41,681 nt of DNA, from NCBI GenBank assembly GCA_029260055.1, contig JAJDDX010000021.1, positions 1 through 41,681 on the forward strand, given 5' to 3'. The stretch comes from Phycisphaerae bacterium (GTDB lineage Bacteria > Planctomycetota > Phycisphaerae > UBA1845). The notes beneath the pieces were generated by a model. It was given only the letters and a program-made list of their open reading frames with translations. It was not told the DNA's origin and did no database searches. The translations under genes and the position numbers were made by a program. Shown in pieces: positions 12,644 to 39,215 of this stretch; the first letter of the stretch is position 1, and each line of letters starts with the position of its first letter.

Positions 12644-12667
12644 GGTAGTGTCTCAGTTTGAAATCTG
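12644..12667 (+). repeat. Left terminal inverted repeat
   Basis: It begins GGTAGTGTCTCAG and is the exact reverse complement of 13678-13701. The inverted-repeat family was not assigned. Confidence 0.85.
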
Positions 12668-12672
12668 CGGAC

Positions 12673-13441: not shown

Positions 13442-13483
13442 CGTATCCTTCCTGGTGCCAATTGTAGTCACTTTACGCTCAGG

Positions 13484-13512
13484 TTGGTACTCACTTTGAC
13501 GCCCTCTGTCAA
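13484..13512 (-). promoter_or_regulatory. Candidate promoter of the Panacea operon
   Basis: On the minus strand, TTGACA (13512-13507), a 17-bp spacer and TACCAA (13489-13484) lie inside the element, about 40 bp before the likely ATG. A second -10-like TACAAT lies at 13466-13461. The element therefore seems to carry its own promoter. The -35 is a consensus match and the -10 is weak. Confidence 0.4.
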
Positions 13513-13677
13513 TAAAGATTCCGTGCGGTGCTGATGAAAACCCCTGCGATTACATGGCTCTCATTAAAGCCATGCCGTGTTGACCGCCGCTCCTACAACG
13601 TCAGCGGGACGCTCCTCGCCTCTTGGTCCTCTCGGCATAACTCCATGGTAACTCAGGTATGCTCGTAGGCAACCCCC

Positions 13678-13701
13678 CAGATTTCAAACTGAGACACTAC
13701 C
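13678..13701 (-). repeat. Right terminal inverted repeat
   Basis: The exact reverse complement of 12644-12667, ending CTGAGACACTACC. It is followed directly by the right copy of the imperfect target duplication. Confidence 0.85.
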
Positions 13702-13709
13702 GTGTTGCG
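13702..13709. repeat. Right copy of 8-bp imperfect target duplication
   Basis: GTGTTGCG, next to the right inverted repeat, matching 12636-12643 in 7 of 8 positions. Confidence 0.6.
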
Positions 13710-13797
13710 GGTATTGAGAGATCGCTATTGCCGAGATGCTGACCGGAATCACTGGGCGGGTGTCGTAGCTGGAGAAATAGGGCAGGGTCTCCGGGAT

Positions 13798-15000
13798 ATG
13801 AGTTCTGTCGTGACACGTGTTCTCGAGATGATTCGCTCAGGGTTCGTGCGCCTGCGATGGCGCCTCGTTTGGCTGTTCGACTTCTCGGGAATGCGGGTGG
13901 TCTGGCTGAAGTTCTTTCCCAGGCATGACTGTATCGAGTTAGAGGAGAAGGGGTGGAAGCCCAGAACCGGAGTGCTTTGGGCGGTGAGTATCTATTCTGC
14001 GACCTTCGGCATCGCGTCAAATCGATATGAGAATGCTTTGGATCGTATCGAGCACCGCCAAGATAGTATCTACGCCCAGCTTGGTACGGAGCAATGGAAG
14101 GCAGCGCTAGCGCGCATCCCCGGTGCGCAAAAGATGACACGCCCTAAGGATTTGGAGTTCTTCTGGCCGTCTACGGTTTTTGTTTCAATGTTCGGTACTT
14201 TCGAGACGGACCGGGAGAACATAGAAACACTAAAAGACATCGCCGTATCTTTCAAAAAATCCCTTCGCGACGTGTATTTCTATGGTGCCGACCTCAGCGG
14301 TGCCGACCTCACCGGCGCGGATTTCACCGGCGCGCAGCTTTCCTGGGCGCATCTTAGCGGAACGCGACTGTGGCGTGCTAACTTCACCGGCGCGTTCCTT
14401 ACTGGCGCGTACCTCGTCAAAGCGGACCCCATCGGTGCGAACTTCACCAACGCCCACCTCGCCCACTCGAAGCTCACCAACGCGAACTTCAAGGATGCGA
14501 TCCTCGCTGGCGCGGACCTAGGGCGTGCCACCCTCGTCAAGGCCGACCTCACTGGCGCCGACCTGACCGGCGCGGATCTCACCGGCGCGTACCTCACCAG
14601 GGCTGACCTCACTGGCGCCGACCTCACCGGAGCAGACCTCACCGACGCGGACCTCACTAACGCGGGTCTCATCGGCACAGTCCTAATCGGCGCGGACCTC
14701 ACGGGCGCGGACCTCACCAACGCGTACCTCACGGATGCGATCCTAACCGGTGCGGACCTCACGGCAACCGATTTGACTGGGGTGAAAGCGCTGTCATGCG
14801 AACAACTCTCCGAGAGCGAGAATTTTGAGTTCGCATACCGTGACGAATCTCTCGCTTGCGGACACGCTATTCGGGATGACCTCAGGGGTGAAGAACTCGT
14901 AGCGGCGTATGATTGGAGGCGTGTAACAGTGACGGATATCGGCGGCAGAAAAAACGGATATGTTCCTCCTGCTGTGTACTCCTCCCGCGCCCCGGAGTAA
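13798..15000 (+). CDS. Pentapeptide-repeat protein with N-terminal helical domain
   Basis: A 400-residue protein. Residues of about 163-355 are continuous pentapeptide repeats of the A-D-L-T-G type, which fold into a square right-handed beta-helix. At the DNA level the units are near-identical runs of the CTCACCGGCGCGGA kind. The N-terminal 160 residues are basic at first (R-S-G-F-V-R-L-R-W-R), then hydrophobic around 58-72, perhaps membrane-associating. The tail after the helix has three cysteines. The frame is open from GTG 13702, inside the target duplication; ATG 13798 is a more likely start. Pentapeptide proteins include DNA mimics and scaffolds. No specific role can be read here. Confidence 0.75.
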   Translation: MSSVVTRVLEMIRSGFVRLRWRLVWLFDFSGMRVVWLKFFPRHDCIELEEKGWKPRTGVLWAVSIYSATFGIASNRYENALDRIEHRQDSIYAQLGTEQWKAALARIPGAQKMTRPKDLEFFWPSTVFVSMFGTFETDRENIETLKDIAVSFKKSLRDVYFYGADLSGADLTGADFTGAQLSWAHLSGTRLWRANFTGAFLTGAYLVKADPIGANFTNAHLAHSKLTNANFKDAILAGADLGRATLVKADLTGADLTGADLTGAYLTRADLTGADLTGADLTDADLTNAGLIGTVLIGADLTGADLTNAYLTDAILTGADLTATDLTGVKALSCEQLSESENFEFAYRDESLACGHAIRDDLRGEELVAAYDWRRVTVTDIGGRKNGYVPPAVYSSRAPE

Positions 15001-16227: not shown

Positions 16228-16250
16228 TCGATTCCAGAATCTGGAACCGA
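16228..16250. promoter_or_regulatory. Palindromic operator/promoter element, copy 2 (distal tail operon)
   Basis: The same 23-bp palindrome as at 107-129 with one change (C at 16247). AAAATCTAGA begins 10 bp after it and TGTGG 42 bp after it, exactly as in copy 1. It lies directly downstream of the accessory block and upstream of the distal-tail genes, so it would restart late transcription there. Confidence 0.7.
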
Positions 16251-16378
16251 GAAGTCCCGAAAATCTAGACCCAGATGGGTGCGAAAAGGACTGTGGTGCT
16301 TACACGCCTCAGGTCGTAGCGCGGTAACTAGTGGGGCGAACCCGCGACCGCACTACGACGCTGGGGCAAGTTTTAAGC

Positions 16379-19410: not shown

Positions 19411-19802
19411 ACTTCGACGAACTCATAGGGATCCCCTACGTCTTTCGAGGGAGAGATCCCGAAGTAGGCCTGGACTGTCTCGGGTTAGTCGTAGAGGCGT
19501 TTAAATGCGCTGGCGCGAGTTTTCCTGACCCCATCGAGTATCAGGAGAATTGGGTCGAATACGGTAATGATCACTTACGGGAGAACCGGCCCGAGAGTTG
19601 GCGTCCGGTGGAGGAACCCTACGAACCGCTGGACGTGATCTTCCTGCGGATGAACCGAGAGAAAGTCCCGTCACATATCGGGCTGCACGTTGGCGACGGT
19701 CGCGTGCTCCACATGCCCACAGGGGGCAAGTCGTGCCTGATACGTCTGCGTGGAGTTCGGCGTTTCATCGAGAGTGCTTGGCGTCTTCCGGAGTTCACAT
19801 GA
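19407..19802 (+). CDS. NlpC/P60 tail-tip peptidase (gpK-like)
   Basis: A 131-residue NlpC/P60 cysteine peptidase. The catalytic cysteine is C24 in G-L-D-C-L-G-L. The histidine is H90 in S-H-I-G-L-H-V-G-D-G, and H102 is the third polar residue in V-L-H-M. In phage tails such domains (lambda K C-terminus) are carried at the tip and cleave peptidoglycan stem peptides during DNA entry. The protein lacks the JAB/MPN-like N-terminal domain of full-length lambda K, so it is a short version. Both ends overlap neighbours by ATGA. Its start is fixed by the overlap with gpL. Confidence 0.85.
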   Translation: MNFDELIGIPYVFRGRDPEVGLDCLGLVVEAFKCAGASFPDPIEYQENWVEYGNDHLRENRPESWRPVEEPYEPLDVIFLRMNREKVPSHIGLHVGDGRVLHMPTGGKSCLIRLRGVRRFIESAWRLPEFT

Positions 19803-22800
19803 TCACCACCAAGGTTGTTCCTTCGCCCCTCCATGGCGTCACTGATTCTTGGCTCGAACCGTACGGTTCAGGTCGTACCGTCGGTGACTATGTCCCCGAA
19901 CAGATGGGGGAAGACTTCTATGCGAAGCGGAACGGTGAAGTCGCGGACTTGGATACGTTGGTTGCCGACCATGACGAGCTCACCTTTGTTGCTGTGCAGG
20001 GTTTCGAGAGTTTGGCCATCGCGATCGCAGAGTTCTCGTTCGCTGAGTTCATTGTAACGTTCTTCGTAGCGAGCGCGGTTTCGTATGGTCTGCAGATGCT
20101 CATCGGAGGCCCGGGCAGTCCGCAGGAAGACGATCCCAACCACACGTTTGGGGCCTTAGAGAACACCACTCTTCCGGGTACGACGATTCCGATTCCTTAC
20201 GGTGATGTTCGCATCGCGGGCCACTTCATCAATCTATTCACACGTGTAAACGAACAGGGCGATACCGTTGTTCATGCTCTGATCTGCGTGGGGGAGGGTA
20301 GGATAGAGGCTCTGGGCGACAACACCGGGGGCATACTCGGTGAGTTCGACCGTTTGCCACACGACGATCCTTCTATCGCTGGGATCGAAATTAACGGAAA
20401 CGGAATCTCCAATTACCCGGGCGTGATGGTGTCGTTTCGCTCTGGTGAGATTAACCAGTCGCCGATCAAGGGCTTCAACGAAATCGTTTCGCAGTTCGCC
20501 GTGCTCTTAGATCTCGCCGAACCGGTCGATCCGCTGGCCGGTGACTCTCCGAGTGGTGCTGGGCCGTGGCTCACGAGACAAACGCAAGCCCCCGTCGACG
20601 CGTTCATCGTAACGATCGCATTTCCTGAGGGGTTGCTCTGGATCACTGACAAAGGAAAGCGAACCACTCGGGAGGCTCACTACCAATGCCGGTTTCGCGA
20701 ACTCCCGGCGGGTGATTGGGTATGGATCGATTACGACCCAGAGAAGAACACCTACACGCTCAAGCCGGATGCAGAGGTCACGTATCAGGATGACGACCAG
20801 CAACCGGACTATGCTTCAAACAACGGAAGAAATGACGCACGTCCGGTGCACATTGCGAAACGGACGAGCTCGACGTTTGAGTCCGAACTCCGTGTCGAGG
20901 TCGACTCGATCCAGGTCGAGGTGCAGATCCGACGGCTAAACCTTCGCTATCAATTCTCGTTCATCGAGCAAACCGCTCTTTACTTCAACTTTGCGGGGAA
21001 CGATCACAGACCGCCGAAAGGGATGAATGCGATGGTTTGGAGTACGTTCTCCGAGGTCGTTGACGAGCAACTGAGCTACCCCGGTCTTGCGTTGGTTGGG
21101 GTCGAGGCTGTTGCCCGGGACGGGCTGCAGGGGCGCAGGCCTAACTTCACGTTCCCGATCAAGGGACTAAGGTGCCCGGTATGGGACGGTTCGAATCCTA
21201 GAGCTCCGGTGTTTGCGCGTAAGTACACGCAAAACCCTGCGTGGCATAAGCTCGACCTTCTTACGAACGAGATCTACGGGTTAGGTCGCGCCACGACCAC
21301 CGATGACATTGGCCTAGATACTCTCTTGGAATCCTCCCAATGGCACGATGAGTTGGTCGATGACGGCCGCGGAGGGACAGAGGCCCGTCACCAACACGAT
21401 CGGGTAATTCTTCGGCAGACTTCCGGATGGGATGCGCTTTTGGAGATATGTATAAGCTGCGGCACTGGTCTTATTCAGCGGGCTCGGAGGATCGAGACAT
21501 ACATGGAGAAGGCGAGGCCCGTCGCCGCCAGATTCAGCCGGTCAGAAACGTTACGCGGGACCGATGATAAAAGCTGGCTAGCGCTTCAACAGCCCAATCA
21601 GCTTGTCCTTCAGTATCTCGATCGAGATCTCGGTTTCGCTCAGGAGACTGTCGTTGCGGAGACCGCCGGGCTTCAACGAGGCGAGGAGGATTTGGTCAGT
21701 CAAAGTCGTTCGATCCACGGCGTGACCAGGCAGTCGCAAGCCGGGCGCGTGGCACTCGCAGCCTTAGGGTTGGTGAATGGATCCAACAAAACATCGACGC
21801 GAACTTTAAACAGAAGAGCGGCCAATCTGTCCGCTGGGGACAGGATCCAGTTAGAGGATGATACCACCGTCAACACGGTATCTGGCCGGTTGGCTGCTGA
21901 TTCGGCAGACTCGAGCGTCCACCTAGACAAAACCGTCACGCTGGAAGCCGGCAAGACCTATTCCGTAGAGATCACGCACAGGGACGGGACGACAGAAGAG
22001 CGAACGATAACCAGCCCCGCAGGGAAGTATAAACCTCCCGCGGCGCTTAGCGTCGATTCGCCGTGGATAACGAAGCCCAAGAAGCTGTGGCCGTACGGGT
22101 TCGGAGAACAGGGCTCGGTGTGGCGTGACTGGCTCATCGTCTCGGCTACGCGCACGAAGGAACTCGCCCGGGCCGTTTCGCTCGTTGAATACGACGATGC
22201 GAATTACGTGGACGACGGGGTTGTGATTGTCGACCAGGGTTCGAATGACGATCCGGATCCCGAACTGCTTCCCCCTGACGTCACTAATCTTACGGTCAGA
22301 GAGCGTACATCGGTCGAGTCGGACGGATCCCTGACATTGGTCGTCGAGGTTTCATGGAACTACGCCGGCAACCTCCAACCGCGAGCGACGGTGTTTTACC
22401 GTGAGGTGACCGAATTACACTGGACCAAGGCGGGCACGACGAGTCTGGATGAGTTTTTGGTGTCCGGTGATCTCGAAGTCGGAGTACGCATCACTGTTGC
22501 TGTCTGTGCGGCGACCATAGAGGGAGCGCACCGCCCGCCTGAGCTGTGCCCCTCGGCAGAGGTTCTTGTGACAGGTCTTCCGTCCCCGCCGATCGCTCCG
22601 GAAGATCTGACGATGAACCGGAACAAAGACGTGCTCATTCTGGGCTGGTCGGTCCCAGATGATGACTTAGAAGACGCCATTACGCCGATCCCGAACCTTC
22701 TGCACTTCCGAGCTTTTCGCGGTTCCGATTTTAGAGCCGCGCCCGTGGTTGGTGTGTCCTCCCACTCTTCCGCGCCTGTGATCGATTGGTACCCAGGGCG

Positions 22801-23599
22801 CGAGTGCTACCTAGTCAAGACAGTCGACAGTACGAACCAGTTCTCGAACGGAACGGCTTATGGTTGCGTAGACCTTGAGCCTCCCGCTGGGGGCGTAAAG
22901 CTGTTGGAGCGAAACGAGCTAGATCTCGGATGGCCGGGGTCGAAGTTCAACGTGACCCAGCCGGGCGCGTTCCTACTACTCCAGCAAGGCGAGGATAGCG
23001 GCGCATATTCAACGCCGAACATCGATCTTGGATCCGTCAAAGAGATCATCCTGGTTGCCTCGGCAGCGATTGCTCAGAGAGAGCTGACCCCGTATTTCAC
23101 CATGCAGGCATCCCGCGTGTCGACGGTGTCCGGCGAGATCCCCTATGGGGCGACGATCACCGGCCAAACCTCGGGCGCTACGGCGAAGGTTTTGAGCCCG
23201 GTTTCGGCTGCGTCCACTGATCTTGTCTTTGAGCAGCTCACGGGAAGTTTCCAGGTTGGGGAGACAGTAAGCGACAGCCAGGCTACGGCCGTCGTAGCCC
23301 TCGCTCCTCGCGAGCTCGCGATGAATGATCCGGCACGGGCCGACCGCGACTTCGGCGGACGAATCAAGGACAACCTGCTGAAAAGGACCGATCCTCTCGG
23401 GAACACTGTCGCCAAGACCCGCCTTACTCTAGGCACGACAGAGGACGTTCAGACGGGGTTCCGCAGTTATCCGGATATTTGGTCGCTGAGAGCTCGGGCT
23501 CGGTTCGTACGCTGCGACATCGATCTGGAGTGTGACGATCCGGTCAACTTTGGGGTGGGACTGTACGGCTTGCGGCTGGCGGTGTTTGAAGTGTCTTGA
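19799..23599 (+). CDS. Tail tip attachment protein, I-J fusion type
   Basis: A 1266-residue protein from ATG 19799, chosen over the longer open frame because it overlaps the K stop (ATGA). Residues of about 1-110 look like gpI: a ubiquitin-like start, then a hydrophobic segment A-S-A-V-S-Y-G-L-Q-M-L. Then comes the J-type body with P-I-P-Y-G-D-V-R-I-A-G and R-L-N-L-R-Y-Q-F segments. FN3-like beta-sandwiches lie near residues 820-1050. A doubled S-G-A-T-A module is near 1110-1175, before a C-terminal beta domain that should contact the receptor. J-type proteins determine host range. The stop codon lies within the third palindromic element. Confidence 0.85.
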   Translation: MITTKVVPSPLHGVTDSWLEPYGSGRTVGDYVPEQMGEDFYAKRNGEVADLDTLVADHDELTFVAVQGFESLAIAIAEFSFAEFIVTFFVASAVSYGLQMLIGGPGSPQEDDPNHTFGALENTTLPGTTIPIPYGDVRIAGHFINLFTRVNEQGDTVVHALICVGEGRIEALGDNTGGILGEFDRLPHDDPSIAGIEINGNGISNYPGVMVSFRSGEINQSPIKGFNEIVSQFAVLLDLAEPVDPLAGDSPSGAGPWLTRQTQAPVDAFIVTIAFPEGLLWITDKGKRTTREAHYQCRFRELPAGDWVWIDYDPEKNTYTLKPDAEVTYQDDDQQPDYASNNGRNDARPVHIAKRTSSTFESELRVEVDSIQVEVQIRRLNLRYQFSFIEQTALYFNFAGNDHRPPKGMNAMVWSTFSEVVDEQLSYPGLALVGVEAVARDGLQGRRPNFTFPIKGLRCPVWDGSNPRAPVFARKYTQNPAWHKLDLLTNEIYGLGRATTTDDIGLDTLLESSQWHDELVDDGRGGTEARHQHDRVILRQTSGWDALLEICISCGTGLIQRARRIETYMEKARPVAARFSRSETLRGTDDKSWLALQQPNQLVLQYLDRDLGFAQETVVAETAGLQRGEEDLVSQSRSIHGVTRQSQAGRVALAALGLVNGSNKTSTRTLNRRAANLSAGDRIQLEDDTTVNTVSGRLAADSADSSVHLDKTVTLEAGKTYSVEITHRDGTTEERTITSPAGKYKPPAALSVDSPWITKPKKLWPYGFGEQGSVWRDWLIVSATRTKELARAVSLVEYDDANYVDDGVVIVDQGSNDDPDPELLPPDVTNLTVRERTSVESDGSLTLVVEVSWNYAGNLQPRATVFYREVTELHWTKAGTTSLDEFLVSGDLEVGVRITVAVCAATIEGAHRPPELCPSAEVLVTGLPSPPIAPEDLTMNRNKDVLILGWSVPDDDLEDAITPIPNLLHFRAFRGSDFRAAPVVGVSSHSSAPVIDWYPGRECYLVKTVDSTNQFSNGTAYGCVDLEPPAGGVKLLERNELDLGWPGSKFNVTQPGAFLLLQQGEDSGAYSTPNIDLGSVKEIILVASAAIAQRELTPYFTMQASRVSTVSGEIPYGATITGQTSGATAKVLSPVSAASTDLVFEQLTGSFQVGETVSDSQATAVVALAPRELAMNDPARADRDFGGRIKDNLLKRTDPLGNTVAKTRLTLGTTEDVQTGFRSYPDIWSLRARARFVRCDIDLECDDPVNFGVGLYGLRLAVFEVS

Positions 23600-23618
23600 T
23601 TCCAGAATCTGGAATCGA
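23596..23618. promoter_or_regulatory. Palindromic operator/promoter element, copy 3 (fibre operon)
   Basis: The same 23-bp palindrome with one change (T at 23597). It overlaps the stop codon of the tail-tip gene and precedes the first fibre gene by 50 bp. Here a TGTGG lies 30 bp after the palindrome rather than 42, and the AAAATCTAGA block is missing. Confidence 0.65.
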
Positions 23619-23668
23619 CAGAGGCTGATTTCCTGGATCGATAACGTTGTGGCTAGCAGCCTTTACGG

Positions 23669-26600
23669 GTGCGGAAGCTTCTAGCAACGGCGGTCTTCGC
23701 GTGGGTAGGTCTTGCCTCCTTCGCCGCGGAGGCCGCCTGTCCAGCTGACATGGGTTGTGCGGGCCGATCGCTCGCAGCCGATCCCCATATGGTCCTTGTC
23801 GGTAGCGGGAACACAGGGCCGGGCGGCAAACCGGAGTACATCGAATCGAAGCTTCCGGAGGGCTGCCTATCGGCTCTCTCATACGACTCAACGACCAAGG
23901 TGTTCGGCTGCGTTACCGGTGGTATCGTCGCCGACGGCAACGCCCAGACGCTTTGCGCGGACGGCGAGCTCCTTTTCGGAGACGCCGGCGCTCCCCGGTG
24001 TGTGGCCGTTCCAACCTGTAACATCCCCGGTAACGAGGTCCTGACCTACAACGGGACGGCGTTCTCGTGTGTCGTTGTCAGCGGCGGCGGGGTGACGGTC
24101 CACGCGAACCTCACGGGACTGGGTGCGGACGATCATCTGCAATATGTCCGGACTGACGGGACCAGGGCGATCACCGGGAACCAGACCTTTGAGGCCGGCG
24201 CAACTTTCAACTGCGATCGCGTCACTGAGAACTGCCACCCGCAGTTTATACAAGACGACACCACGACAACCCCGGTCACCGCCGGTGTGTGCACACTCGG
24301 ACCTCGAACGAACGGTTGGCTCTACCTGGACTGCAACGGCGCTTTGCAGGCGTATCGACTCCTAGACGAGAGAGACGTGGTTGTGGGCGCGACTGATCAC
24401 GGAGCCCTTACGGGTCTCACCCCCGATGATGATCATCCGCAGTATGCAAAGACCGACGGCAGCCGAGATATCACGGGGACGCAAACCTACCTCGCAGGTG
24501 CGACTTATGTCTGTGACCCAGCAACGCAGGAATGCTGGCCGGAATATACGCAAGACGACACAATCACCGCTCCGGTCACTGCAGGGGTGTGCAAGTTCGG
24601 GTTTGAGACCGACAAGAAAGCCTATCTGTACTGCAACGCCGGCACGAAGACGCAGATCCTCGATACCGCCGACGTCGGAACGGCGCCGGGAACTGTTGCT
24701 GCAGGAGATCACGGTCACGGTGCTCGTGCGTGGCACGACGTAAGGGATTTCGGTGCGGGGACCGGGGAAACCGGGGCGACAAATACAGCGTCCATTCAGG
24801 CCGCGATTGATGCAGCCGCGACGGACAAAGGGGTGGTCTACTGCACCGGCGGCACCTACGTAGTCGACGCGCTCGACGGCGGAATCGGCGCCGACAATCA
24901 CAAGTACAGCCTTTTGATCCAAGACGTGAGCGATATTGCGTTCGTCGGGGATTGCACCATCCAGTCTAGTTTTGCCGGGACGGCGGTCGGCCCGGTAGCG
25001 GGTGCGGCCAACGGGCACGCGATGATCTTCCGGCTCCACGGCACGGTGGACAACATCACTTTTGAGGGGATCACGCTTCAGGGACTCAATTCGAATTCCC
25101 CGAGCCCTGTCCCGCCGACCAACTGGATTCGCGGCGTCTGGAACACGTCGGGAAATACGATCAGCCGCATCCATGTCCGCAACGTGACTTTCGAACACCT
25201 GATTTCAGGCATGAGCTTCAACGCCAACTTAGGTGGCAGCTTCACCGATTCGAGCGTGGAGAACAGTGTGTTCATCAATATGGCTGCTGAGTACGACAAC
25301 GGCGGCTCGGGCTACGGCGTCGATGATGAGGGCACTAACAACCGCATCGTACACAACCGCTTCGACAAGAGCGGGCGGCACGATATCTACATCGCTAATG
25401 CCAAAAACGCATTCGTGGCCGACAACCACAGCACCAACCACCGGCAAGACCAACGCGCCGCAGGGTCACCGCTAAACCGTTCGGCGATTAATATTACGCG
25501 CTCGGTCAACACCACGGTGGTCGGTAATACCATCGAGGACTTCTGGGACGGCGCATTTTTTATCGGCGCGGAGACCTCGACCAGCGAGCCGAGCGATGGC
25601 ACGACGTTTGTTAGTAACCACATCATACAGCCGAAGAACGGCGCGGCGTGGTTCCAGGTCGGAGAGACGAAGGATACCACCGTCGGCGAGCGGACATCCA
25701 ACGTCCTCATCTCGAAGAATACGTTCAAGGGCAGTGAGACCGGCGTCGAGTCGGGTGAGACGTTCGCGATGGTCGGCCGCCTGAACAACGGATTCAACAT
25801 CCAGCTCACCAACAACGTCGTATTCTTGTCGGATTTGACGCTGGCATCGTCATACGACGTGATCCAACTCGGAACCGTCGCCCCTACCACCGTTGGCTAC
25901 ACGATTTGCAACACCACGACTGACTGTAATAGCGGCGGCTGGCTGGCCGCAGGCAACTCACTTGAGGTTCTGGACTCCACGTCCCTGTGCGTAGGCGGAG
26001 GCGATGACGGTCTTCTGTGCGATCCATTGGTGGGTGGTACGTGCGTATCACTCGGCGGTACTTGCACGGCTGCGCCGGTCAACTTCTTCAAGGTCAACGA
26101 ACTCGCTGCAATCCCGACCACCGACTTTTCGATCAAGGTATCGAACAACCAGTACACGTCTGATGGTTCGCCTGGCTTTATCCGGCACTTGATTATCGGA
26201 GGTCCAGGCGGCGACCAGGACTTCAACGATCTGCTGGTCGAGGAGAACACGGAGCGTAATTGGGGCCAGTGTCAGTTTACCGACGGCGACGCCACGCCGA
26301 ACGTGCAGGGGGTCAAGGTATGTAGGACCAATAACACTGGCGGCGCTACTACGATTACGAATCTAGACGAGGGCATCCCCGGCCAAGACGTGCTGATTGT
26401 GGTTCAGGATGCGAACACGACCTTCGACTTTAGCGTCAGCAGTTTGACCGGGCACGGCGGTGTGGACTTTGCTGCTGCCAGCGGCGATTGGGTCTACTGC
26501 ACTTACTGGCGCAAGGGGCCGCAGTGGGCGTGCTCGACTTCGGACGGCGGCGCGGCTGGCGCACCGACGACTGCGGACTATCTGACTGGGACAGCGCAGG

Positions 26601-27805
26601 CCGGGCTGTCTGCCGAGATCGTAGTCGGTGCTACACCGGGTGGTGAACTCGGTGGTACCTGGGCCGCTCCGACCGTCGACGCTACGCACAGCGGCAGCGC
26701 GCACCATACAAAGTACACGGACGGCGAAGCTGTCACGGCGATGGGAGTGAAGGGCGACGCAAACCCGCTCAATCACGACAAGGCTGTGAACGCGGTTTCG
26801 AGCGTGTTCGGTCGAACTGCTGCAGTGGTGGCTGCGCCTGGAGATTATACCGCCGCACAGGTGACCAATGTTCCCGCCGGCACGATCGCCGCGATCGAAG
26901 TTCAGGCAGCGATCAACGAGTTGGACGCGGACAACACCGCTTCACACCACACAAAATATCTCGACAGCGAAGCTGTAGCCGCGATGGGCGTGCTCGGCGA
27001 CGCCAACCCGCTGAACCACGACAGGGCGGTAGACACGACCTGCGCTTCTCCAACCAACTGCGACCTCGGTGCATCGAGCACGGTGGAAAGTTCGCTGATC
27101 TGTCGCGCTGATGGGACGAATTGCCCAGCCGGCGGGGCCGCGTTCTGGCGGCTCGGCGATACGGATTATGGCCAGTTCAGCGTCGTTGAACTCGGAACCG
27201 ATCTCTCGCTTCAGCCTGTTGATGCGTGTGTAGGTGGAACAAATCCGCGTGACGATTGCACATTGCCGGGCGGAGTCGAGTGCCTTGGCGGTGGCGTGTG
27301 TACTGCAAATGCGAAACTCCGAATGGCCTCCGACGTTGTGAATTATAAGCAGGGGCGCCCCGTTCTCGCGAGCGATGCTCCGGATTCCTGCACAACCAGA
27401 TTCTTCACTGCCCTGAACATCGGCACCGCCCCGGTTTATTGCACTCCCTCGGGTCAGTGTTCTTCAACCGTCAACGAGGGAATGGTTCCGGCTCCGAACG
27501 GAGCACGCGTCTCGGACCTGACTGTGCGTTTCACCAACGGCACGACCGGAGCGACGGGCGCAGCGGTCACAACCGCGCCAGCGTCAACCTGTTCGGCGGG
27601 TTCGTTCAACTGCTCGGGAAGTGCCGACTCGGGCACAGTTGTCTGTACCAGTACCGGGGCAAATAGCATGTGCACGACTCCCGGAGTGAGTCACACGGTC
27701 ACCGCCGGGGATTACTTCGCAATAAAGCTCGATGGAAACCTAGCCGCGCAAGATGCGGCGGTCTCGGTTGTTGTATGTCTACCAGACGCATTCTTTACGC
27801 CTTAG
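23669..27805 (+). CDS. Tail fibre/spike with pectate-lyase-like beta-helix and signal peptide
   Basis: A 1378-residue protein. The first 23 residues are a Sec-type signal (M-R-K-L-L-A-T-A-V-F-A-W... ending A-E-A-A before C-P-A-D). Two copies of a fibre unit follow (about 148-235 and 243-330), each with a G-L-x-x-D-D-H-x-Q-Y-x-x-T-D-G motif. A pectate-lyase-3-like beta-helix starts near residue 355 (V-R-D-F-G-A). The last third has S-S-V-F-G-R-T-A-A-V-V and two H-H-T-K-Y segments, typical of phage fibres. Cysteines occur throughout. It binds or degrades host surface sugars by inference. The GTG start has no clear ribosome-binding site. A signal peptide on a virion fibre is unusual. Confidence 0.8.
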   Translation: MRKLLATAVFAWVGLASFAAEAACPADMGCAGRSLAADPHMVLVGSGNTGPGGKPEYIESKLPEGCLSALSYDSTTKVFGCVTGGIVADGNAQTLCADGELLFGDAGAPRCVAVPTCNIPGNEVLTYNGTAFSCVVVSGGGVTVHANLTGLGADDHLQYVRTDGTRAITGNQTFEAGATFNCDRVTENCHPQFIQDDTTTTPVTAGVCTLGPRTNGWLYLDCNGALQAYRLLDERDVVVGATDHGALTGLTPDDDHPQYAKTDGSRDITGTQTYLAGATYVCDPATQECWPEYTQDDTITAPVTAGVCKFGFETDKKAYLYCNAGTKTQILDTADVGTAPGTVAAGDHGHGARAWHDVRDFGAGTGETGATNTASIQAAIDAAATDKGVVYCTGGTYVVDALDGGIGADNHKYSLLIQDVSDIAFVGDCTIQSSFAGTAVGPVAGAANGHAMIFRLHGTVDNITFEGITLQGLNSNSPSPVPPTNWIRGVWNTSGNTISRIHVRNVTFEHLISGMSFNANLGGSFTDSSVENSVFINMAAEYDNGGSGYGVDDEGTNNRIVHNRFDKSGRHDIYIANAKNAFVADNHSTNHRQDQRAAGSPLNRSAINITRSVNTTVVGNTIEDFWDGAFFIGAETSTSEPSDGTTFVSNHIIQPKNGAAWFQVGETKDTTVGERTSNVLISKNTFKGSETGVESGETFAMVGRLNNGFNIQLTNNVVFLSDLTLASSYDVIQLGTVAPTTVGYTICNTTTDCNSGGWLAAGNSLEVLDSTSLCVGGGDDGLLCDPLVGGTCVSLGGTCTAAPVNFFKVNELAAIPTTDFSIKVSNNQYTSDGSPGFIRHLIIGGPGGDQDFNDLLVEENTERNWGQCQFTDGDATPNVQGVKVCRTNNTGGATTITNLDEGIPGQDVLIVVQDANTTFDFSVSSLTGHGGVDFAAASGDWVYCTYWRKGPQWACSTSDGGAAGAPTTADYLTGTAQAGLSAEIVVGATPGGELGGTWAAPTVDATHSGSAHHTKYTDGEAVTAMGVKGDANPLNHDKAVNAVSSVFGRTAAVVAAPGDYTAAQVTNVPAGTIAAIEVQAAINELDADNTASHHTKYLDSEAVAAMGVLGDANPLNHDRAVDTTCASPTNCDLGASSTVESSLICRADGTNCPAGGAAFWRLGDTDYGQFSVVELGTDLSLQPVDACVGGTNPRDDCTLPGGVECLGGGVCTANAKLRMASDVVNYKQGRPVLASDAPDSCTTRFFTALNIGTAPVYCTPSGQCSSTVNEGMVPAPNGARVSDLTVRFTNGTTGATGAAVTTAPASTCSAGSFNCSGSADSGTVVCTSTGANSMCTTPGVSHTVTAGDYFAIKLDGNLAAQDAAVSVVVCLPDAFFTP

Positions 27806-30800
27806 CCGCCGTCTTATGGGCGGCGCCGGTTTATGCCGGACGGCCCTTTCAGACGACATTCGACTCGAAGGCTGCGTCGTGGAACCCGGCGAAGTTCTCA
27901 CCACCTGGAAACGGTGAATATGTTTTCGACAACTATTTGGGATCGAAGCCTAACATCAACACGTCGGGCACTACGTTAAGGACCGCCGTGTGTGCTCACG
28001 GGACGGTGAATGCTGGGATGCCGTGCGTGTTTGACGCTCAGTGCGGTATTGATTCGGTCGGGTTTCGCGAGTGTCGGTCTGGGGCGAGCGTTTACCCCAA
28101 CAGGGCCAACGCTTTTTTCGCAGGCGATTCCACCTTGGCGGACAAGGGCGTAGATTTTATCAAGTTCTACAACGCCGCCGGGACCATCCTTTGCAGCGCG
28201 AGGTTGTTCCGCACGATACCGTCAGCGACGGCATCGCCGGAAATAGACCAGATCTCCGTATCGTCGCAGTACGGCGCCGGCGCAAACAATTTTATTTGCG
28301 ACGGCGGAATCAACGACGGCACGCCTTGTGATGCTGGCTGCTTGAGTGACGCTGACTGCACGGGGATCGGGACCGAGGTCTGTCCGCGCCCAGGCGCCGG
28401 CGGTGTATGCCAGGGGGTTTCGTGTGCGGCAAACGATCCCGGGGAACTCGATTGTATCCCTGGACAATCTGCAGGGTTCGGCGGCTTGCTTGTGCAGCGA
28501 CACAACGAGATCTCCTTGGTTCAAGATGTAACGGGCGCAGGAACACTAAGTTGTGATCTTGTGGTCAACGGGGAAGTCTTCCGCGGCTCGAGCATCCAGA
28601 CTGGCGTCTGTTCAATCACTGGCTGGGCTTGCGGTCAGGATACGGACTGCGGGTTTGAGGGTAACACTAAGCGTTGCTCGGGATGGACTGCAGCCGGCGA
28701 TCCTAACGGTGATGATGTCTGTAACACCGGCGCCGATTGCCCAGGCGTGGAGACGTGCGTCACACAAACCTGTGCGCTCATCCCTGACCTTAAAGTCACG
28801 CGGATGGTCGTCGGGCCGGAGAATGGGGCGGCATCGACCGCCGTCGAGATCGGCGCGAATTATATCGCCGCACCCGGCGACGATACGATCGCTCTCCACG
28901 GCATTTTCTATGCTCAGTCCTCTACAACCTGGGCGATGTATGTCGACGACCTGTTCGTTGATGACGCTCCGGACAGTGTGGGCGACTACGAAGATCTAAA
29001 GGCCGTTGTCATGGAGACGCTTGCGCCTACCGGCGACATTCTCACTGAGCTGTCGCGAACTGGCTGCTCGGGGGCCGGGAATTTTAATCTGTGCGTGAAT
29101 GATCTCGCGCTCACCGGGACGGCAGATGCTAGCGATTATCTGAGTCAATCGGCTACTAACCTCAAGGCCGCGATCTTCACTCTTTCGGACATGGCGACGG
29201 CGCATCCTGATTCAACTGGTGGCGAGGGTTACGTCTCGGCTGTCGTCATTGCGAAAGACCCGGGGACTACGGCGACGAACTGGGGGAATCAGAACGTCCG
29301 GCTATGCCTGGGGGATGCCGGGTGTTCCACGCAGGCCGGGTGCATCGCGGACGTTGACACGGCGTGCTCGCCGATCGTCGATATTGCTAACGAGGATGCG
29401 ACGAATGGTGTCGTGGTCGCTGGCGTTTCAAAGGACTTCGGCACGAGAACGAATGTCAACGCGGCGAGGATTTACATCGACATCGACACGACGAGTTGCG
29501 CGAGCAGTTGCCCTACTCGCGTGTCGGATCTGCTCGTTTCGGCATCCTATAACGTCTCGATGAAGCCGCCGCCCGGGGTTGTGACGGATGACAATGGTGA
29601 TGGGACGATTCGTATTACCGAGGCGGGCGACTCGGTATTCAACACACTGGACCTTAGGCGTGGCTTAATTCTGAAGGTTGGGGATCTCGAATCTCTTGTC
29701 GTCTACACACAGGGTGGGCGCACGACCGGCGACCTCAAGCTGGCTACTCCGTATATCGTTGACGGTATCGCCGGCGGACCTCTCAACGGTCGGAGCGAAG
29801 TCGGTGGCATTGGTAAGCCCGACAAGGTGATCACCATGTTCGGCGCGAACGATCTCCCCTCCGGTAGCATAAAGCAGAGCTATTGTTCTGCGGGTGCATC
29901 GGTCGGGGAGCTTTGCGAAAGCGATGCGGACTGCGGGAGTCCGAACCTTTGCGAAGAATATGATGGGTATTGCTGGGGCGGTCCGAATCACGGGACGCCG
30001 GCGCCGTGCAGCCAAAACAGCAGTTGGGCGAACTCCGCATCTATTCATTATTGTCTCAACCACGCGGACGGGAAATGGCTCACGGAGAACACCGGACCTG
30101 AATGCTCACGGTGCGTGGATGACGCGGATTGCGAGTCTTACATCGCATGTACGGTAGACGCCGACTGCACGCGGCTCAACGGAGCGTCGATATTACCGTC
30201 AACGTGTGATGTCGCCGCTGGGTTTTGCATAGGTCAATGCCAGTTCTCGCTCTTTGAACCGTGCGACACGATCGGGAACCCCGACCACACAAATGGGCAG
30301 GGGGTGAGTCAGTGCTCGTGTAGTAGCTCGCTAGGCGTCGCCGCGTGGCAGAACTACGAGCTCCCAGTTCCTCCGGTCGCGCCGGACTGGTCGAAACCTG
30401 GATGTAAAGACGTGCCGGGATGCTCTCCGGGCATCGTGCTTGCCTATAACTCGTGGGCGTCGATCGAGAGAAACCTCGATGTATTCCGGCGCGAATACGA
30501 GGCGCGGAACTCGGATGTGCCGACAACAAACGATTTCAAATGGATTCTGGCAACGGAGGCTGTGCCGCTCGGGAACCATCCTCAAGCAAACGGCTTCTGG
30601 GCAGGGTTCGCAGCGCACGCTCCGACGCTTTCCGGCCTCGCATCGCTTCAACGCGACTATGCGAACCGACACCGGACGCAGAACAATATGTGGTTCGTTG
30701 ATGTCGCTGGATTCACGCACGACTACTGCCGCGATTTCGGTGGTGGGGTGTTCTCGTGCTGGGGCGATCCTGTGCACCCTAGCAAAAAAGGTGACGACAT

Positions 30801-31005
30801 CGTCGTCAGTGCGGTCGGCACCGACGTACAAACAGAGATTCTGGCGGCTTGCCTGAATCAGAAATTCCCATTCTCGGCGGAAGCCGCCGGCACTAGGACG
30901 CACGACGGCACCTGTTCCACCGAGGTCTGTACGACCGGCAGGATTGGCAACCCGTGTTCTAGCGATTGGGATTGTTCCTATTTCTGGTGCGAGGACACTT
31001 TCTGA
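27775..31005 (+). CDS. Cysteine-rich tail-associated SGNH/GDSL esterase with signal peptide
   Basis: A 1076-residue protein. ATG 27775 is internal to a longer frame and overlaps the upstream gene by 31 bp. It gives a clean signal peptide (R-R-I-L-Y-A-L-A-A-V-L-W-A, cleavage near V-Y-A-G). The N-terminal 550 residues hold many C-x-x-D-x-D-C type modules between beta domains. An SGNH hydrolase domain follows: block I G-D-S with S620, a Gly pair G-G-R-T near 650, block III G-A-N-D at 690-693, and block V D-P-V-H with D998 and H1001. Such domains remove acyl groups from polysaccharides. In a phage fibre cluster this suggests deacetylation of capsule or O-antigen. A short cysteine-rich tail ends the chain. 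Confidence 0.75.
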   Translation: MSTRRILYALAAVLWAAPVYAGRPFQTTFDSKAASWNPAKFSPPGNGEYVFDNYLGSKPNINTSGTTLRTAVCAHGTVNAGMPCVFDAQCGIDSVGFRECRSGASVYPNRANAFFAGDSTLADKGVDFIKFYNAAGTILCSARLFRTIPSATASPEIDQISVSSQYGAGANNFICDGGINDGTPCDAGCLSDADCTGIGTEVCPRPGAGGVCQGVSCAANDPGELDCIPGQSAGFGGLLVQRHNEISLVQDVTGAGTLSCDLVVNGEVFRGSSIQTGVCSITGWACGQDTDCGFEGNTKRCSGWTAAGDPNGDDVCNTGADCPGVETCVTQTCALIPDLKVTRMVVGPENGAASTAVEIGANYIAAPGDDTIALHGIFYAQSSTTWAMYVDDLFVDDAPDSVGDYEDLKAVVMETLAPTGDILTELSRTGCSGAGNFNLCVNDLALTGTADASDYLSQSATNLKAAIFTLSDMATAHPDSTGGEGYVSAVVIAKDPGTTATNWGNQNVRLCLGDAGCSTQAGCIADVDTACSPIVDIANEDATNGVVVAGVSKDFGTRTNVNAARIYIDIDTTSCASSCPTRVSDLLVSASYNVSMKPPPGVVTDDNGDGTIRITEAGDSVFNTLDLRRGLILKVGDLESLVVYTQGGRTTGDLKLATPYIVDGIAGGPLNGRSEVGGIGKPDKVITMFGANDLPSGSIKQSYCSAGASVGELCESDADCGSPNLCEEYDGYCWGGPNHGTPAPCSQNSSWANSASIHYCLNHADGKWLTENTGPECSRCVDDADCESYIACTVDADCTRLNGASILPSTCDVAAGFCIGQCQFSLFEPCDTIGNPDHTNGQGVSQCSCSSSLGVAAWQNYELPVPPVAPDWSKPGCKDVPGCSPGIVLAYNSWASIERNLDVFRREYEARNSDVPTTNDFKWILATEAVPLGNHPQANGFWAGFAAHAPTLSGLASLQRDYANRHRTQNNMWFVDVAGFTHDYCRDFGGGVFSCWGDPVHPSKKGDDIVVSAVGTDVQTEILAACLNQKFPFSAEAAGTRTHDGTCSTEVCTTGRIGNPCSSDWDCSYFWCEDTF

Positions 31006-32858
31006 TGAAGATCAAAACCGCTCTGTTCGCTCTGTCGGTGTGGATGGCGATCCCAGTCGCAGCGCAGGCGGCGACGTATTACCTAGACGACGACGGCGTG
31101 AATTCGCTCATATGCGATGCGGCGGTCTCGTGTGGCGTGACGGCGTGTCGCAACTGGGATTACTTGGTCGAGCAATCCGGCGCGACACTCACGGCCGGTG
31201 ACACGATCATCCTGTGTAACACCGAGGGTGCGTGGGTGTCATTGGGATCTACGGCAACGGTTGATTGCGGAATCGACTTGAACGGCGTCGATAACATCAC
31301 GTTTCAGGGCGAGACCGGCGTTGCCTCAGACGTGAAGCTGCTCATGGGCGACAACCAGACCGCGTGCCGCGCCTTTACGGCCGGTGGATCTGACCCTCGA
31401 TCTGCGTTCCGCATTATGAACTCGACCGGCTCGACCGTCCGCGACGTGACGATCAACGCGACGATTGCTGCCAGTAGCGCCAGCGGTATCTTGTACCGCG
31501 ACACCACCGGCGGCTTGATTCAGAACGTCGTCATTGAGTCCGCTGAGCGCGAGGGTATCGAGTGCGGAAATGGCGGCGTGGGCACAGGCGGTGCAAACCC
31601 CGCGACATCGCTCGTCATTCGGGATGTTGTAGTCAAGCAGGCAACCACGGTTAGCGGTGCAGGGGGAATCGGTGCGTTTAAATGCCCGTTGCTCGAAGTC
31701 CACGACACTGTGTTGGACGGCAGCACATCACCAGCGATCGGAGACCGTGACGGCATCCACATCACAAACTCGCACGGTTACTTGATCGACGGCTTGATCT
31801 CGCACGGCTGGTCAGAAGAAGGTTTTGATGGCAGCCGAACAGGCAGTAGCGACAACCTATGCGAATCATGGAACGCCGGCGGCTGTGTTGGCGGTAGCGA
31901 AGTGGGTACTGCGTGCGCCGCAGACGCAGACTGCGCGGGCGGCGGGACGTGTAGACGCTGGGTGATCGCGAACTCGAAGATATACGACAACCAAACGAGC
32001 GGCACGGGCAGTGCGTTGGCGGTGAAGTCCTGCAACTACCACGGACTGATTTACAACAACTTCCTCAAGGACTCAGGTGATGCGATTCGACTGAATAAGT
32101 GCGCGCACGCTCTACAAATTTTCAATAACACCATGTTTGGTGGGTTCCAGGTTTGGCAGAACCACTACGATCTCGATGTTCGCAATAACATCATGGTGCG
32201 CAGCGGAGCCATCATGCAGGTCGGCAAAACGTCAGTCGGTCTCGAAGTCGGCGACGAAAACGTGTTCGACTATAACCTCGTTTACACCCGCGCTGGCGGT
32301 GATGTCATTTCAGGCATCGCAGGTGGGTCCGTGGCATTGCCTCCAGAATCCCAACAGTGCGGCGGTCCCGGTGACGTGGGCGCAGGGACTATTTGCTGCG
32401 ACACACAGGCCGGATTGCCGAGCGCGTCTAGTTACAGCAACACCCAAGGCGCTTTGTTCGCCAGCGATAACGAATTCGGTGGTGTCGGCGCGAACAACGT
32501 TTTCAACACCGACATTTCTTGGGTGAATCAGGCCGCGACGCCCCCGGACCTGCACATTTCGGCAGGGTCTCCTGCGTTGGATATTGGCGTGACGCTGACG
32601 AGTTTCGCCATCGACATTGATGCAGACGCAAGACCTCAAGGCGCGTCGTGGGATCTCGGAGCCGACGAACTCGCAGGCACGCTCCCGGCTTGCGGGTTGG
32701 CGACGGCTCCGACGTGTGCCGGCACGTGTGCACCCCTGCTTGTCTGTCAAGACGTCCTCGGGGTTTGCGAATGCCACGAAGAGGGCTTTCCGGGAGGAGA
32801 GGGCGGAGTCTCTGCAATCTGGAACGGAATCAGCGGGAAGGGGTACAGCCTACCATGA
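31005..32858 (+). CDS. Secreted-type right-handed beta-helix protein of the fibre cluster
   Basis: A 617-residue protein from ATG 31005 (one-base overlap with the previous stop). The signal peptide is M-K-I-K-T-A-L-F-A-L-S-V-W-M, cleavage near A-Q-A-A. The body has repeated short strands with Asn ladders and N-x-x-x-x-N-N turns (such as L-I-Y-N-N-F-L-K and D-V-R-N-N-I-M-V), typical of parallel beta-helix proteins that bind or cut polysaccharide. A C-x-A-D-x-D-C module interrupts the helix near residue 305. The C-terminus has a cluster of cysteines (C-A-G-T-C and C-E-C-H-E). No catalytic residues are identified. Confidence 0.7.
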   Translation: MKIKTALFALSVWMAIPVAAQAATYYLDDDGVNSLICDAAVSCGVTACRNWDYLVEQSGATLTAGDTIILCNTEGAWVSLGSTATVDCGIDLNGVDNITFQGETGVASDVKLLMGDNQTACRAFTAGGSDPRSAFRIMNSTGSTVRDVTINATIAASSASGILYRDTTGGLIQNVVIESAEREGIECGNGGVGTGGANPATSLVIRDVVVKQATTVSGAGGIGAFKCPLLEVHDTVLDGSTSPAIGDRDGIHITNSHGYLIDGLISHGWSEEGFDGSRTGSSDNLCESWNAGGCVGGSEVGTACAADADCAGGGTCRRWVIANSKIYDNQTSGTGSALAVKSCNYHGLIYNNFLKDSGDAIRLNKCAHALQIFNNTMFGGFQVWQNHYDLDVRNNIMVRSGAIMQVGKTSVGLEVGDENVFDYNLVYTRAGGDVISGIAGGSVALPPESQQCGGPGDVGAGTICCDTQAGLPSASSYSNTQGALFASDNEFGGVGANNVFNTDISWVNQAATPPDLHISAGSPALDIGVTLTSFAIDIDADARPQGASWDLGADELAGTLPACGLATAPTCAGTCAPLLVCQDVLGVCECHEEGFPGGEGGVSAIWNGISGKGYSLP

Positions 32859-35372: not shown

Positions 35373-36320
35373 CTATAGTTGCCTCTCGTCCACAAGTCTC
35401 CAGTATTGAAAGCCCAACGCAGTCAGGCGGCACGCCCTCGACTTCATCGCGGCGAAGTACATGTGTTCTTCGCCGACCGGAACCACGAGGCCCACCCCCT
35501 CCATCTTCTGAAGGTCTTTAAAGATTGCCACCTTTGCCGGATCGTGTCCGATTTCAGTGTACTCGTAGCTGGGGTCAAGAGCGTGCTCGTCCTGCGGATT
35601 GGGGAAGTAATCGACGAGCTTCCGGAGCGTCTCAAGCGGAACGGGAGGCGTCACCTCACGTAGTGAGGTGAACGAGGTGACGTTTGTTTTGAAAATCGGC
35701 CGCTGGTTCCATGCGCCGAGTGCCTGATCTACGTACGCGTAGATGGAGCCAGGCGTTATGTGCCCGCGAAGATCTCCAGCTCCCCCTTGGAGCCCGTCGA
35801 CGACGAGGTCGGTGAACACTCCCGCTCCACCCTTCTCCATCGCCGGCTCCGAGTGCCGGCTTGCGGTAAGCACGGTGAGCCCCTCAGAGAGTTGTGCGAT
35901 GCCGCCTTCAGCGATCGTAGGGGTACCCATGTTCCCTGAGTAACAGCAGTCCAGGATCACAACCTTGTTCTTAACCGGAGATCGGTTAGCCATGCCGAGG
36001 ATCTCCGTCATCGAGATCCCCTCATCATACGTTTTGAAGTCGCTTGTGACGATGTAACCATCGGTGCTGCGGACGAATCCGTGCCCCGAGAAGTAAAGCA
36101 ACCCAATGTCGCACTCCGTAGCGAAGAGCTTCTCGATGGCCTCACGCAATCCACCCCTTGAGATGTTGTCGCTCGGCGAGGTCATCAGACGCACGTCGAA
36201 GTTTGGTGATCCATTGCCGTGGGTCTCAAGGACCCCCGCCATGGCATTCGCGTCGTTGACGCACCCCTGAAGCGCGGCTCCAGTGTAGTCGTCGACCCCG
36301 ACAATCAGAGCACGTCGCAC
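35373..36320 (-). CDS. Caspase-like (C14) protease effector
   Basis: A 315-residue protein. Residues 1-220 are a caspase-family domain: an N-terminal strand A-L-I-V-G-V-D-D-Y, a helix with C-V-N-D-A, catalytic H80 in Y-F-S-G-H-G and catalytic C126 in L-D-C-C-Y-S-G (D-x-C-x-S-G as in metacaspases). Residues 225-315 are a separate helical domain, possibly the sensor. It starts at GTG 36320, 12 bp after the stop of the TIR-like gene, with AGGGGAG as ribosome-binding site, so the two form an operon. TIR-plus-caspase pairs have been reported as a Thoeris variant in which a TIR-made nucleotide activates the protease. That role is inferred here. Confidence 0.85.
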   Translation of the reverse strand: MRRALIVGVDDYTGAALQGCVNDANAMAGVLETHGNGSPNFDVRLMTSPSDNISRGGLREAIEKLFATECDIGLLYFSGHGFVRSTDGYIVTSDFKTYDEGISMTEILGMANRSPVKNKVVILDCCYSGNMGTPTIAEGGIAQLSEGLTVLTASRHSEPAMEKGGAGVFTDLVVDGLQGGAGDLRGHITPGSIYAYVDQALGAWNQRPIFKTNVTSFTSLREVTPPVPLETLRKLVDYFPNPQDEHALDPSYEYTEIGHDPAKVAIFKDLQKMEGVGLVVPVGEEHMYFAAMKSRACRLTALGFQYWRLVDERQL

Positions 36321-38374: not shown

Positions 38375-38563
38375 ATGAGTAGAGAAGAATTAGAAAGACT
38401 GGTTCGAGATTCCAAGAACCGCAAAGCCACGGCTGTAGAGAAAGAGGCCCAGCGACGGAGCTTTGCGTACGGCAACACTCATTTTGAGAATGAGCGAATA
38501 ACGAAACGCACGGTGGCCGCCGCCGCTGAGTCGCTGAAGCTCGGCGGTAATGAGAAAAACTGA
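38375..38563 (+). CDS. Fic-associated antitoxin-like small protein
   Basis: A 62-residue charged helical protein. The segment S-F-A-Y-G-N-T-H-F-E-N followed by E-R-I-T-K-R-T-V resembles small proteins found just before Fic genes. In VbhA-type antitoxins an S/T-x-x-x-E-G/N helix blocks the ATP site. Here N-T-H-F-E-N supplies E-N but has N in place of S/T. Its end overlaps the Fic start by 14 bp, so the two are coupled. Confidence 0.55.
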   Translation: MSREELERLVRDSKNRKATAVEKEAQRRSFAYGNTHFENERITKRTVAAAAESLKLGGNEKN

Positions 38564-39215
38564 GGTAAAGAGAGACAGCCGCCCCGCCTCCCACGAGTTG
38601 TTTCCGGATGCAGCTCAAAAGGCCCGACTTGAATCGCGAAACGGCTTGCTCCAGTTCGACTATGTTTTGGAGCAGGTCGATCGCTCGATCAAAACCGGCC
38701 CCTTTAATCTTCGCACTTCCACGCTCCAGGCGCTCCAACGCATAGCCATAAAAGACATCTACACCTGTGCCGGAAACTTTCGCACTGGCCCTGTCGCTAT
38801 AGTGAACTCGCAGCATCAACCCCCACCTGCGGAAGCTATTCCGGAGTTAGTCGAGGACCTCTGTAACTACGTGAACACCAACTGGGGGAGTTCAGCGATT
38901 CATCTGGCGGCCTATGTGATGTGGCGAGTCAATTGGGTCCACCCATTCATGGGCGGCAACGGGCGTACATCGCGAGCGGCATCTTATCTGGTTCTCTGTG
39001 CACGCTTGGGCTACAGATTGCCTGGAGTGCGGACAATTCCAGAGCAAATTGTTGAGCAACGAGGCCCATACTACGAAGCGCTGGATGAGGCAGATGCAGT
39101 CAATCATACAGGACAGATCGACGTGTCGAGTATGGAGGATTTGCTCACTTCAATGCTGGGGGCGCAACTCTTATCGGTCCACGAGGATGCGCTTGCGGGT
39201 AGTGCATCGGTTTGA
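38550..39215 (+). CDS. Fic-family protein with altered catalytic motif
   Basis: A 221-residue Fic-fold protein. The catalytic loop is H131-P-F-M-G-G-N-G-R-T-S-R142. The usual motif is H-P-F-x-D/E-G-N-G-R-x-x-R, so the metal-holding acidic residue is glycine (G135) here. An upstream flap and N-terminal helices fit the family (I-Y-T-C-A-G-N-F-R-T near 70-79). Fic proteins usually AMPylate targets; loss of the acidic residue may weaken this, change the nucleotide, or mean use of another acid. Coupled to the antitoxin-like gene and driven by the promoter at 38185. Its C-terminal codons overlap a sequence resembling the PanAT element end. Confidence 0.8.
   Translation: MRKTEVKRDSRPASHELFPDAAQKARLESRNGLLQFDYVLEQVDRSIKTGPFNLRTSTLQALQRIAIKDIYTCAGNFRTGPVAIVNSQHQPPPAEAIPELVEDLCNYVNTNWGSSAIHLAAYVMWRVNWVHPFMGGNGRTSRAASYLVLCARLGYRLPGVRTIPEQIVEQRGPYYEALDEADAVNHTGQIDVSSMEDLLTSMLGAQLLSVHEDALAGSASV

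Follow-up and report, generated by a model that had tools for sequence, protein, structure and literature searches.

Tailed phages are known to assemble their fibres in the cytoplasm. Do some of them nevertheless export proteins of this kind? The question is raised by three consecutive open reading frames (ORF1, ORF2 and ORF3) behind the tail-tip gene of a prophage-like stretch from a Phycisphaerae bacterium; the window analysed here is the whole of contig C114 (41,681 bp) of a 7.63-Mb metagenome-assembled genome (MAG). Each of the three proteins begins with a predicted signal peptide and is rich in cysteines, and relatives of ORF2 with signal peptides are encoded in the structural modules of divergent environmental phages. 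It seems that these phages export fibre-like proteins and do not merely incorporate them into virions within the cell, and, judged from sequence, ORF1-3 are most likely exported, disulfide-bonded late proteins that bind glycans and remove ester groups from them.

Signal peptides and cysteines of ORF1-3

ORF1, ORF2 and ORF3 lie on the same strand, overlap head to tail and directly follow the gene of a lambda J-like protein.

19796-23599 (+): lambda J-like tail-tip protein, directly upstream of ORF1; no signal peptide; 0.9% cysteine.
23669-27805 (+): ORF1, 1378 amino acids (aa); signal peptide, repeats of phage tail-fibre type (DDHxQY, FGRTAAV), weak right-handed beta-helix, loose cysteine pairs.
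23669-23734 (+): predicted Sec signal peptide of ORF1, 22 aa, cut between AEA and AC; N-terminus MRKLLATAVFAWVGLASFAAEA, followed by AC; start GTG at 23669.
27775-31005 (+): ORF2, 1076 aa; signal peptide, N-terminal half of unknown fold with cysteine modules, C-terminal SGNH hydrolase (predicted) broken by cysteine-rich inserts.
27775-27837 (+): predicted signal peptide of ORF2, 21 aa, cut between VYA and GR; N-terminus MSTRRILYALAAVLWAAPVYA, followed by GR; start ATG at 27775.
31005-32858 (+): ORF3, 617 aa; signal peptide, right-handed beta-helix, one cysteine module, choice-of-anchor-Q match.
31005-31070 (+): predicted signal peptide of ORF3, 22 aa, cut between AQA and AT; N-terminus MKIKTALFALSVWMAIPVAAQA, followed by AT; start ATG at 31005.

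Signal peptides were called with a home-made, rule-based detector (positive n-region, h-region and A-x-A type site; cut-off score 5). The original prediction of convincing signal peptides at 23669, 27775 and 31005 was borne out, since all three proteins scored above 5, with a basic start, a hydrophobic core and an A-x-A-type site, whereas shuffled N-termini reached this score in 0 of 1480 trials. Of 35 ORFs of at least 200 aa in the lambda, T7 and HK97 morphogenesis regions, the detector called only 1, lambda Lom, a genuine outer-membrane protein. The use of an earlier start lacking the signal, which would have spoken against the prediction, was not found for ORF1, given that no in-frame start exists upstream of 23669; the start of ORF2 lines up with those of its homologues, and GAGGA precedes the ATG of ORF3. 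From these checks a wrong start assignment was judged unlikely. Contamination by host genes was also ruled out, because ORF1-3 sit between J and further phage-like genes, and because the relatives of ORF2 are placed in phage structural modules. Export of ORF1-3 by the Sec pathway is predicted with high confidence.

The cysteine content of ORF1, ORF2 and ORF3 is 3.2, 5.5 and 3.8%, respectively, compared with 0-1.9% in the other structural ORFs. Cysteines of the C-x-x-D-x-D-C type had been ascribed to all three proteins; all are indeed cysteine-rich, but the strict motif is confined to ORF2 (6 copies) and ORF3 (1 copy), and ORF1, with 0 copies, has loose pairs instead.

28339-30975 (+): six C-x-x-D-x-D-C motifs of ORF2, at 28339, 28630, 29914, 30112, 30148 and 30955.
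31884-31934 (+): full cysteine module C..G...G..C..D.DC in ORF3, with a second exact copy at 29884-29934 in ORF2.

Two copies of the longer module were found, against 0 expected in shuffles. It is abundant in the same MAG (185 pattern matches versus 7 in a reversed control) and occurs also in Planctomycetota, Deltaproteobacteria and Binatia, which suits the idea that secreted domains were borrowed from the host. Of the contigs retrieved, those labelled Planctomycetota or Phycisphaera are most similar to the cysteine-rich loci of the host, which is thus probably a planctomycete. The idea of borrowing does not extend to the ORF2 enzyme itself, whose family was found here only in phages: the MAG contains it once, and a search of 293 further genomes of the phylum yielded no full-length relative. 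The C..D.DC pattern resembles TIGR04201 and DUF7107, cysteine-rich repeats of secreted myxobacterial-type proteins; the matches in ORF3 are weak and lie under the curated cut-offs (10.8 bits for TIGR04201, cut-off 25), whereas ORF2 gave no match at all.

Relatives of ORF2 in environmental phages

IMG/VR was scanned with a DNA pattern of C..G...G..C..D.DC, which does not require a signal peptide, and the long cysteine-rich ORFs of the contigs obtained mostly begin with one. Among ORFs of at least 300 aa in the examined contigs, a signal peptide was called in 11 of 16 with the motif versus 7 of 119 without it (Fisher p 2e-8), an association that describes contigs picked by their cysteine motif and not all phages; the ORF of L338, one of the 16, was missed by the detector solely through start choice. 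Four contigs encode relatives along most of the length of ORF2 (E down to 5e-30, 23-26% identity), and a profile search adds three. These seven contigs (G765, G768, G775, G764, L336, L337 and L338), which are incomplete and carry heuristic gene calls, span at least four divergent phage lineages (lambda-like, HK97-type, T7-like): HK97-type head genes are present in G765, G768 and L338, with which L336 and L337 are collinear, G775 has a T7-like connector, capsid and internal virion protein, and G764 has a tape measure and J. All the ORF2 homologues start with a signal peptide and sit in the structural region (next to portal, protease, major capsid, tail, internal virion protein or J where annotated), the placement of L336 and L337 being taken from their collinearity with L338. 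Every one directly follows another fibre-like or cysteine-rich protein, here called its partner, which has a signal peptide of its own in G765, G768, G775 and G764. The order in G764 is that of the window, i.e., tape measure, J, two exported fibre-like proteins and the exported SGNH enzyme; among the phages the position of the cassette differs, and it may lie after J, after the capsid gene, or between the connector and capsid genes.

The comparison with related phages, which the original prediction had proposed, showed that the signal persists in every ORF2 homologue, including those in which its sequence has diverged. The mature enzymes of L336 and L338 are 95% identical over 1218 aa, while their signal peptides are only 33% identical (7/21), both being hydrophobic export signals. 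In the DNA, the replaced block runs from the C-terminal domain of the partner through the signal peptide and stops at the cleavage site. The partner itself (L336 1370-2560 versus L338 6737-7906) is near-identical in its N-terminal part, and its C-terminal ~130 aa have been replaced, as in receptor-binding tips. The partners in G765 and G768 are unrelated over their N-terminal 220-260 aa, and both nonetheless start with signal peptides. These comparisons indicate that the signal peptide is maintained by selection. An alignment of the partners was too weak to claim a common C-terminal domain.

The mature parts of ORF1, ORF2 and ORF3 contain 44, 58 and 24 cysteines, and those of ORF2 relatives 64, 86, 56 and 86. 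With related copies counted once, the number is even in 19 of 22 exported cysteine-rich phage proteins versus 25 of 46 that lack a signal peptide (binomial p 4e-4; Fisher p 0.008). Even counts fit fully paired cysteines, as expected outside the cytoplasm. The proposal that disulfides form outside the cell thus gains support from the signals in every homologue, their retention despite divergence and the cysteine parity.

Cultured phages gave no match worth the name to the ORF2 family and none to two partner proteins, and no close relatives of J, portal, ORF1, ORF2 or ORF3 were obtained with exact peptide patterns in the viral contig collection, nor relatives of J in the genome contig collection. 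At 20 J loci of same-phylum prophages, no cysteine-rich exported proteins were seen behind J, so the trait is not general in the phylum. Literature searches turned up no account of phages whose structural modules encode a fibre-like protein paired with an SGNH enzyme, both exported through Sec; in the field, a missing signal peptide has been treated as supporting phage origin (PMC6199706).

Two observations concern the surroundings of the exported pair. In two related phages, the major capsid gene is separated from the pair by a glycosyltransferase gene (phrog_2170; L338 5256-6329; L313 14316-15371), so that sugar-adding and putative ester-cutting genes adjoin. In the structural region of G765, a few genes past the pair, a 331-aa protein with a signal peptide (L311 276-1271 (-), contig G765 40276-41271) looks by eye like an outer-membrane protein.

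Predicted architecture of the three proteins

All three proteins had been taken for fibres or spikes. This description seems to fit ORF1 but not ORF2, which resembles an SGNH hydrolase, nor ORF3, a likely beta-helix protein with a choice-of-anchor-Q match. The domain assignments for ORF1 and ORF3 are weak. ORF1 had no family match above cut-off (Beta_helix, E 0.0096) and no PHROG match, and gave short tblastn matches to phage proteins. It shares a short stretch with a tail-region protein of Halorubrum virus Hardycor2 (L145 5410-7272, QIR31068.1) that is annotated with a predicted signal peptide, and exported tail-region proteins may thus occur in haloarchaeal tailed viruses too. The C-terminal choice-of-anchor-Q match of ORF3 is barely over the cut-off (25.4 bits versus 25), and ORF3 resembles proteins encoded in same-phylum genomes. 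A sequence search of the PDB with ORF1, the C-terminal part of ORF2 and ORF3 gave no match. The sole PDB match of the ORF2 family profile, a nucleoside diphosphate kinase (E 0.001), was taken as chance.

29551-31002 (+): predicted SGNH domain of ORF2, with Ser620 (29632-29634, GDS), Asn692 (29848-29850, GAND), and Asp998 and His1001 (30766-30777, DPVH).

The residues S620, N692, D998 and H1001, which correspond to the block I Ser, the block III Asn and the block V Asp-x-x-His, are invariant in 8 sequences. An AlphaFold2 model of this part, of moderate confidence (mean pLDDT 47.6, core 60-75), has a flavodoxin-like alpha/beta fold, and its best structural matches are the SGNH/GDSL carbohydrate esterases Axe2 (4oao, Z 13.1), AlAXEase (7ddy, Z 12.8) and Ape1 (8gld, Z 10.5), with unrelated folds at ~8. 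ORF2 has the catalytic motifs of these enzymes and differs from them in its large cysteine-rich inserts between the catalytic blocks and in its N-terminal half, the model of which gave no usable fold (pLDDT 31.7). ORF2 did not reach the gathering cut-off of PF13472 (17.4 bits versus 32.9), weak matches being seen in 3 of 5 family members; going by this score it is at most a distant member of the SGNH/GDSL superfamily, for which the cut-off is a convenience threshold and not a defining property. By its motifs and modelled fold, the C-terminal half of ORF2 is an SGNH/GDSL hydrolase nearest in structure to carbohydrate acetyl-esterases, and we infer that it removes ester groups from glycans.

A comparable activity is found in the O-polysaccharide deacetylases of phage tailspikes and tail fibres, such as gp55 of Pectobacterium phage PP99 (PMC6989608), in that ORF2, too, is phage-encoded and is predicted to remove esters from glycans of the cell surface. 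The PP99 enzyme belongs to a virion spike, and the term "signal peptide" is absent from that paper, whereas ORF2 is predicted to be an exported separate chain with its 58 cysteines.

Timing and possible roles of the cassette

The contig represents most of a lambda-like temperate siphophage, with a gpW-like ORF at 180 followed by portal, head protease, major capsid, tape measure, minor tail proteins and the J-like tail-tip protein; an integrase is encoded towards the right end. Since a terminase gene was not seen upstream of portal, the contig is probably incomplete. A 42-nucleotide (nt) repeat occurs at three places (no strand assigned):

107-148: copy 1 (42 nt), before the gpW-like ORF and portal operon.
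16228-16269: copy 2 (42 nt), before an 815-aa tail-region ORF at 16331.
23596-23637: copy 3 (42 nt), ~60 bp before ORF1, holding the palindrome GATTCCAGAATCTGGAATC; probable regulatory site of the cassette.

The near-perfect palindrome is common to all three copies, and its core, TTCCAGANTCTGGAA, has exactly 3 occurrences in the 7.6-Mb assembly, all in this contig and each before a phage transcription unit. Two matches in unrelated IMG/VR contigs, at the start of a lysozyme-like gene, were taken as chance. The repeat would be a regulatory site of the phage, through which the cassette is linked to the morphogenesis genes. Because the palindrome precedes the gpW-portal operon, the tail-region gene and ORF1, the cassette is probably expressed late.

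To the explanation that we favour, a late-expressed cassette exported by the host Sec pathway and acting outside, we attach about an even chance. Late in infection, ORF1-3 would reach the periplasm, shed their signal peptides and form disulfides; ORF1, through its fibre/spike modules, and ORF3, through its beta-helix, would bind envelope or extracellular glycans, and ORF2 would take acyl, probably acetyl, groups off those glycans. The likeliest benefit would be that receptor or capsule glycans around the dying cell are stripped or altered, so that the progeny is released and spreads without being re-adsorbed. Whether the proteins act on host or matrix glycans at release, outside the virion, is in our judgement a matter on which the scales are balanced. 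Several points weigh against this explanation. The signal calls come from a home-made rule, by which L337 and L338 score 4.54, under the cut-off, their signal peptides being judged from the alignment, and by which the hydrophobic N-terminus of the partner in L336-L338 fails. The cysteine-parity test was conceived after seeing the data, and the SGNH model, itself of no more than moderate quality, has weak Foldseek E-values. A virion role would account for the tail-fibre modules of ORF1 equally well, and no outer-membrane anchor or secretion signal was recognised in ORF1-3.

In a rather improbable alternative, the proteins are exported virion fibres whose disulfides mature in the periplasm and which attach to tail tips or capsids after lysis. 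ORF1 has, besides its tail-fibre motifs, a tailspike-type beta-helix and the position of the side tail fibres in lambda-like phages; G764 encodes an exported fibre-like protein of 3031 aa behind J; ORF2 homologues adjoin major capsid genes; and the partners exchange end domains as tail fibres do. The cytoplasmic assembly of fibres in tailed phages speaks against it, and the varying position of the cassette is easier to reconcile with genes that are useful on their own than with a single site of docking. The deacetylase-like domain borne by the capsid turrets of HFTV1, together with a carbohydrate-binding domain, is in its favour (PMC12494034); that protein is a solved virion component of a tailed virus, likened to ORF2 by description and not by homology, and the terms "signal peptide" and "disulfide" are absent from the paper. 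It is doubtful, though conceivable, that in several unrelated tailed-phage lineages some of the apparatus for adsorption or decoration is put together outside the cytoplasm, by Sec export, periplasmic oxidation and attachment to the virion only after lysis.

It is unlikely that ORF1-3 are lysogenic-conversion (moron) proteins displayed on the surface of the lysogen, a suggestion of the original prediction that the palindrome shared with the gpW-portal operon, by arguing for co-regulation with late genes, has made less attractive. A parallel is offered by the temperate siphophage lambda, in which lom, right behind J, encodes a protein with a signal peptide; the window contains an integrase, and ORF3 is like secreted bacterial beta-helix proteins with a choice-of-anchor-Q domain. 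Lom, however, is one outer-membrane protein of 206 aa, whereas here three cysteine-rich proteins of 617-1378 aa have fibre, beta-helix and SGNH-esterase architecture; furthermore, no membrane anchor or beta-barrel was recognised in ORF1-3, their architecture is that of phage fibres, and the homologues lie inside head modules.

It is very improbable that the proteins are ordinary cytoplasmic tail fibres, with N-termini that are no signal peptides or with wrongly assigned starts: ORF1 and ORF2 have no clear ribosome-binding site and later ATG codons of ORF1 (at 28 and 41) would remove the signal, but there are three signals in a row and one in all homologues, preserved through sequence replacement, the cysteine counts are even, and 3-7% cysteine would be unusual for cytoplasmic proteins.

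Signal peptides that recur, under selection, on a predicted esterase and on fibre-like proteins in the structural modules of unrelated phages offer a specific pair of genes for experiments. Should these proteins become part of virions, they would point to extracytoplasmic assembly in tailed phages; otherwise they would represent a group of late phage enzymes that are exported and remodel the matrix or the surface of the host.

Other genes of the window were also noted. In the tail region, 27-nt inverted repeats flank ~1 kb (12644-13701) with a Panacea/SocA antitoxin-like ORF (12977-13471, minus strand) and its neighbour, read as a toxin-antitoxin-like pair on a small insertion-like element, and a pentapeptide-repeat protein of 432 aa follows (13702-15000). 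Near the right end, a caspase-like Peptidase_C14 protein (35373-36320, minus strand) also matches phrog_18397 (function unknown), and a Fic/DOC domain protein (38550-39215) is encoded near the integrase end.

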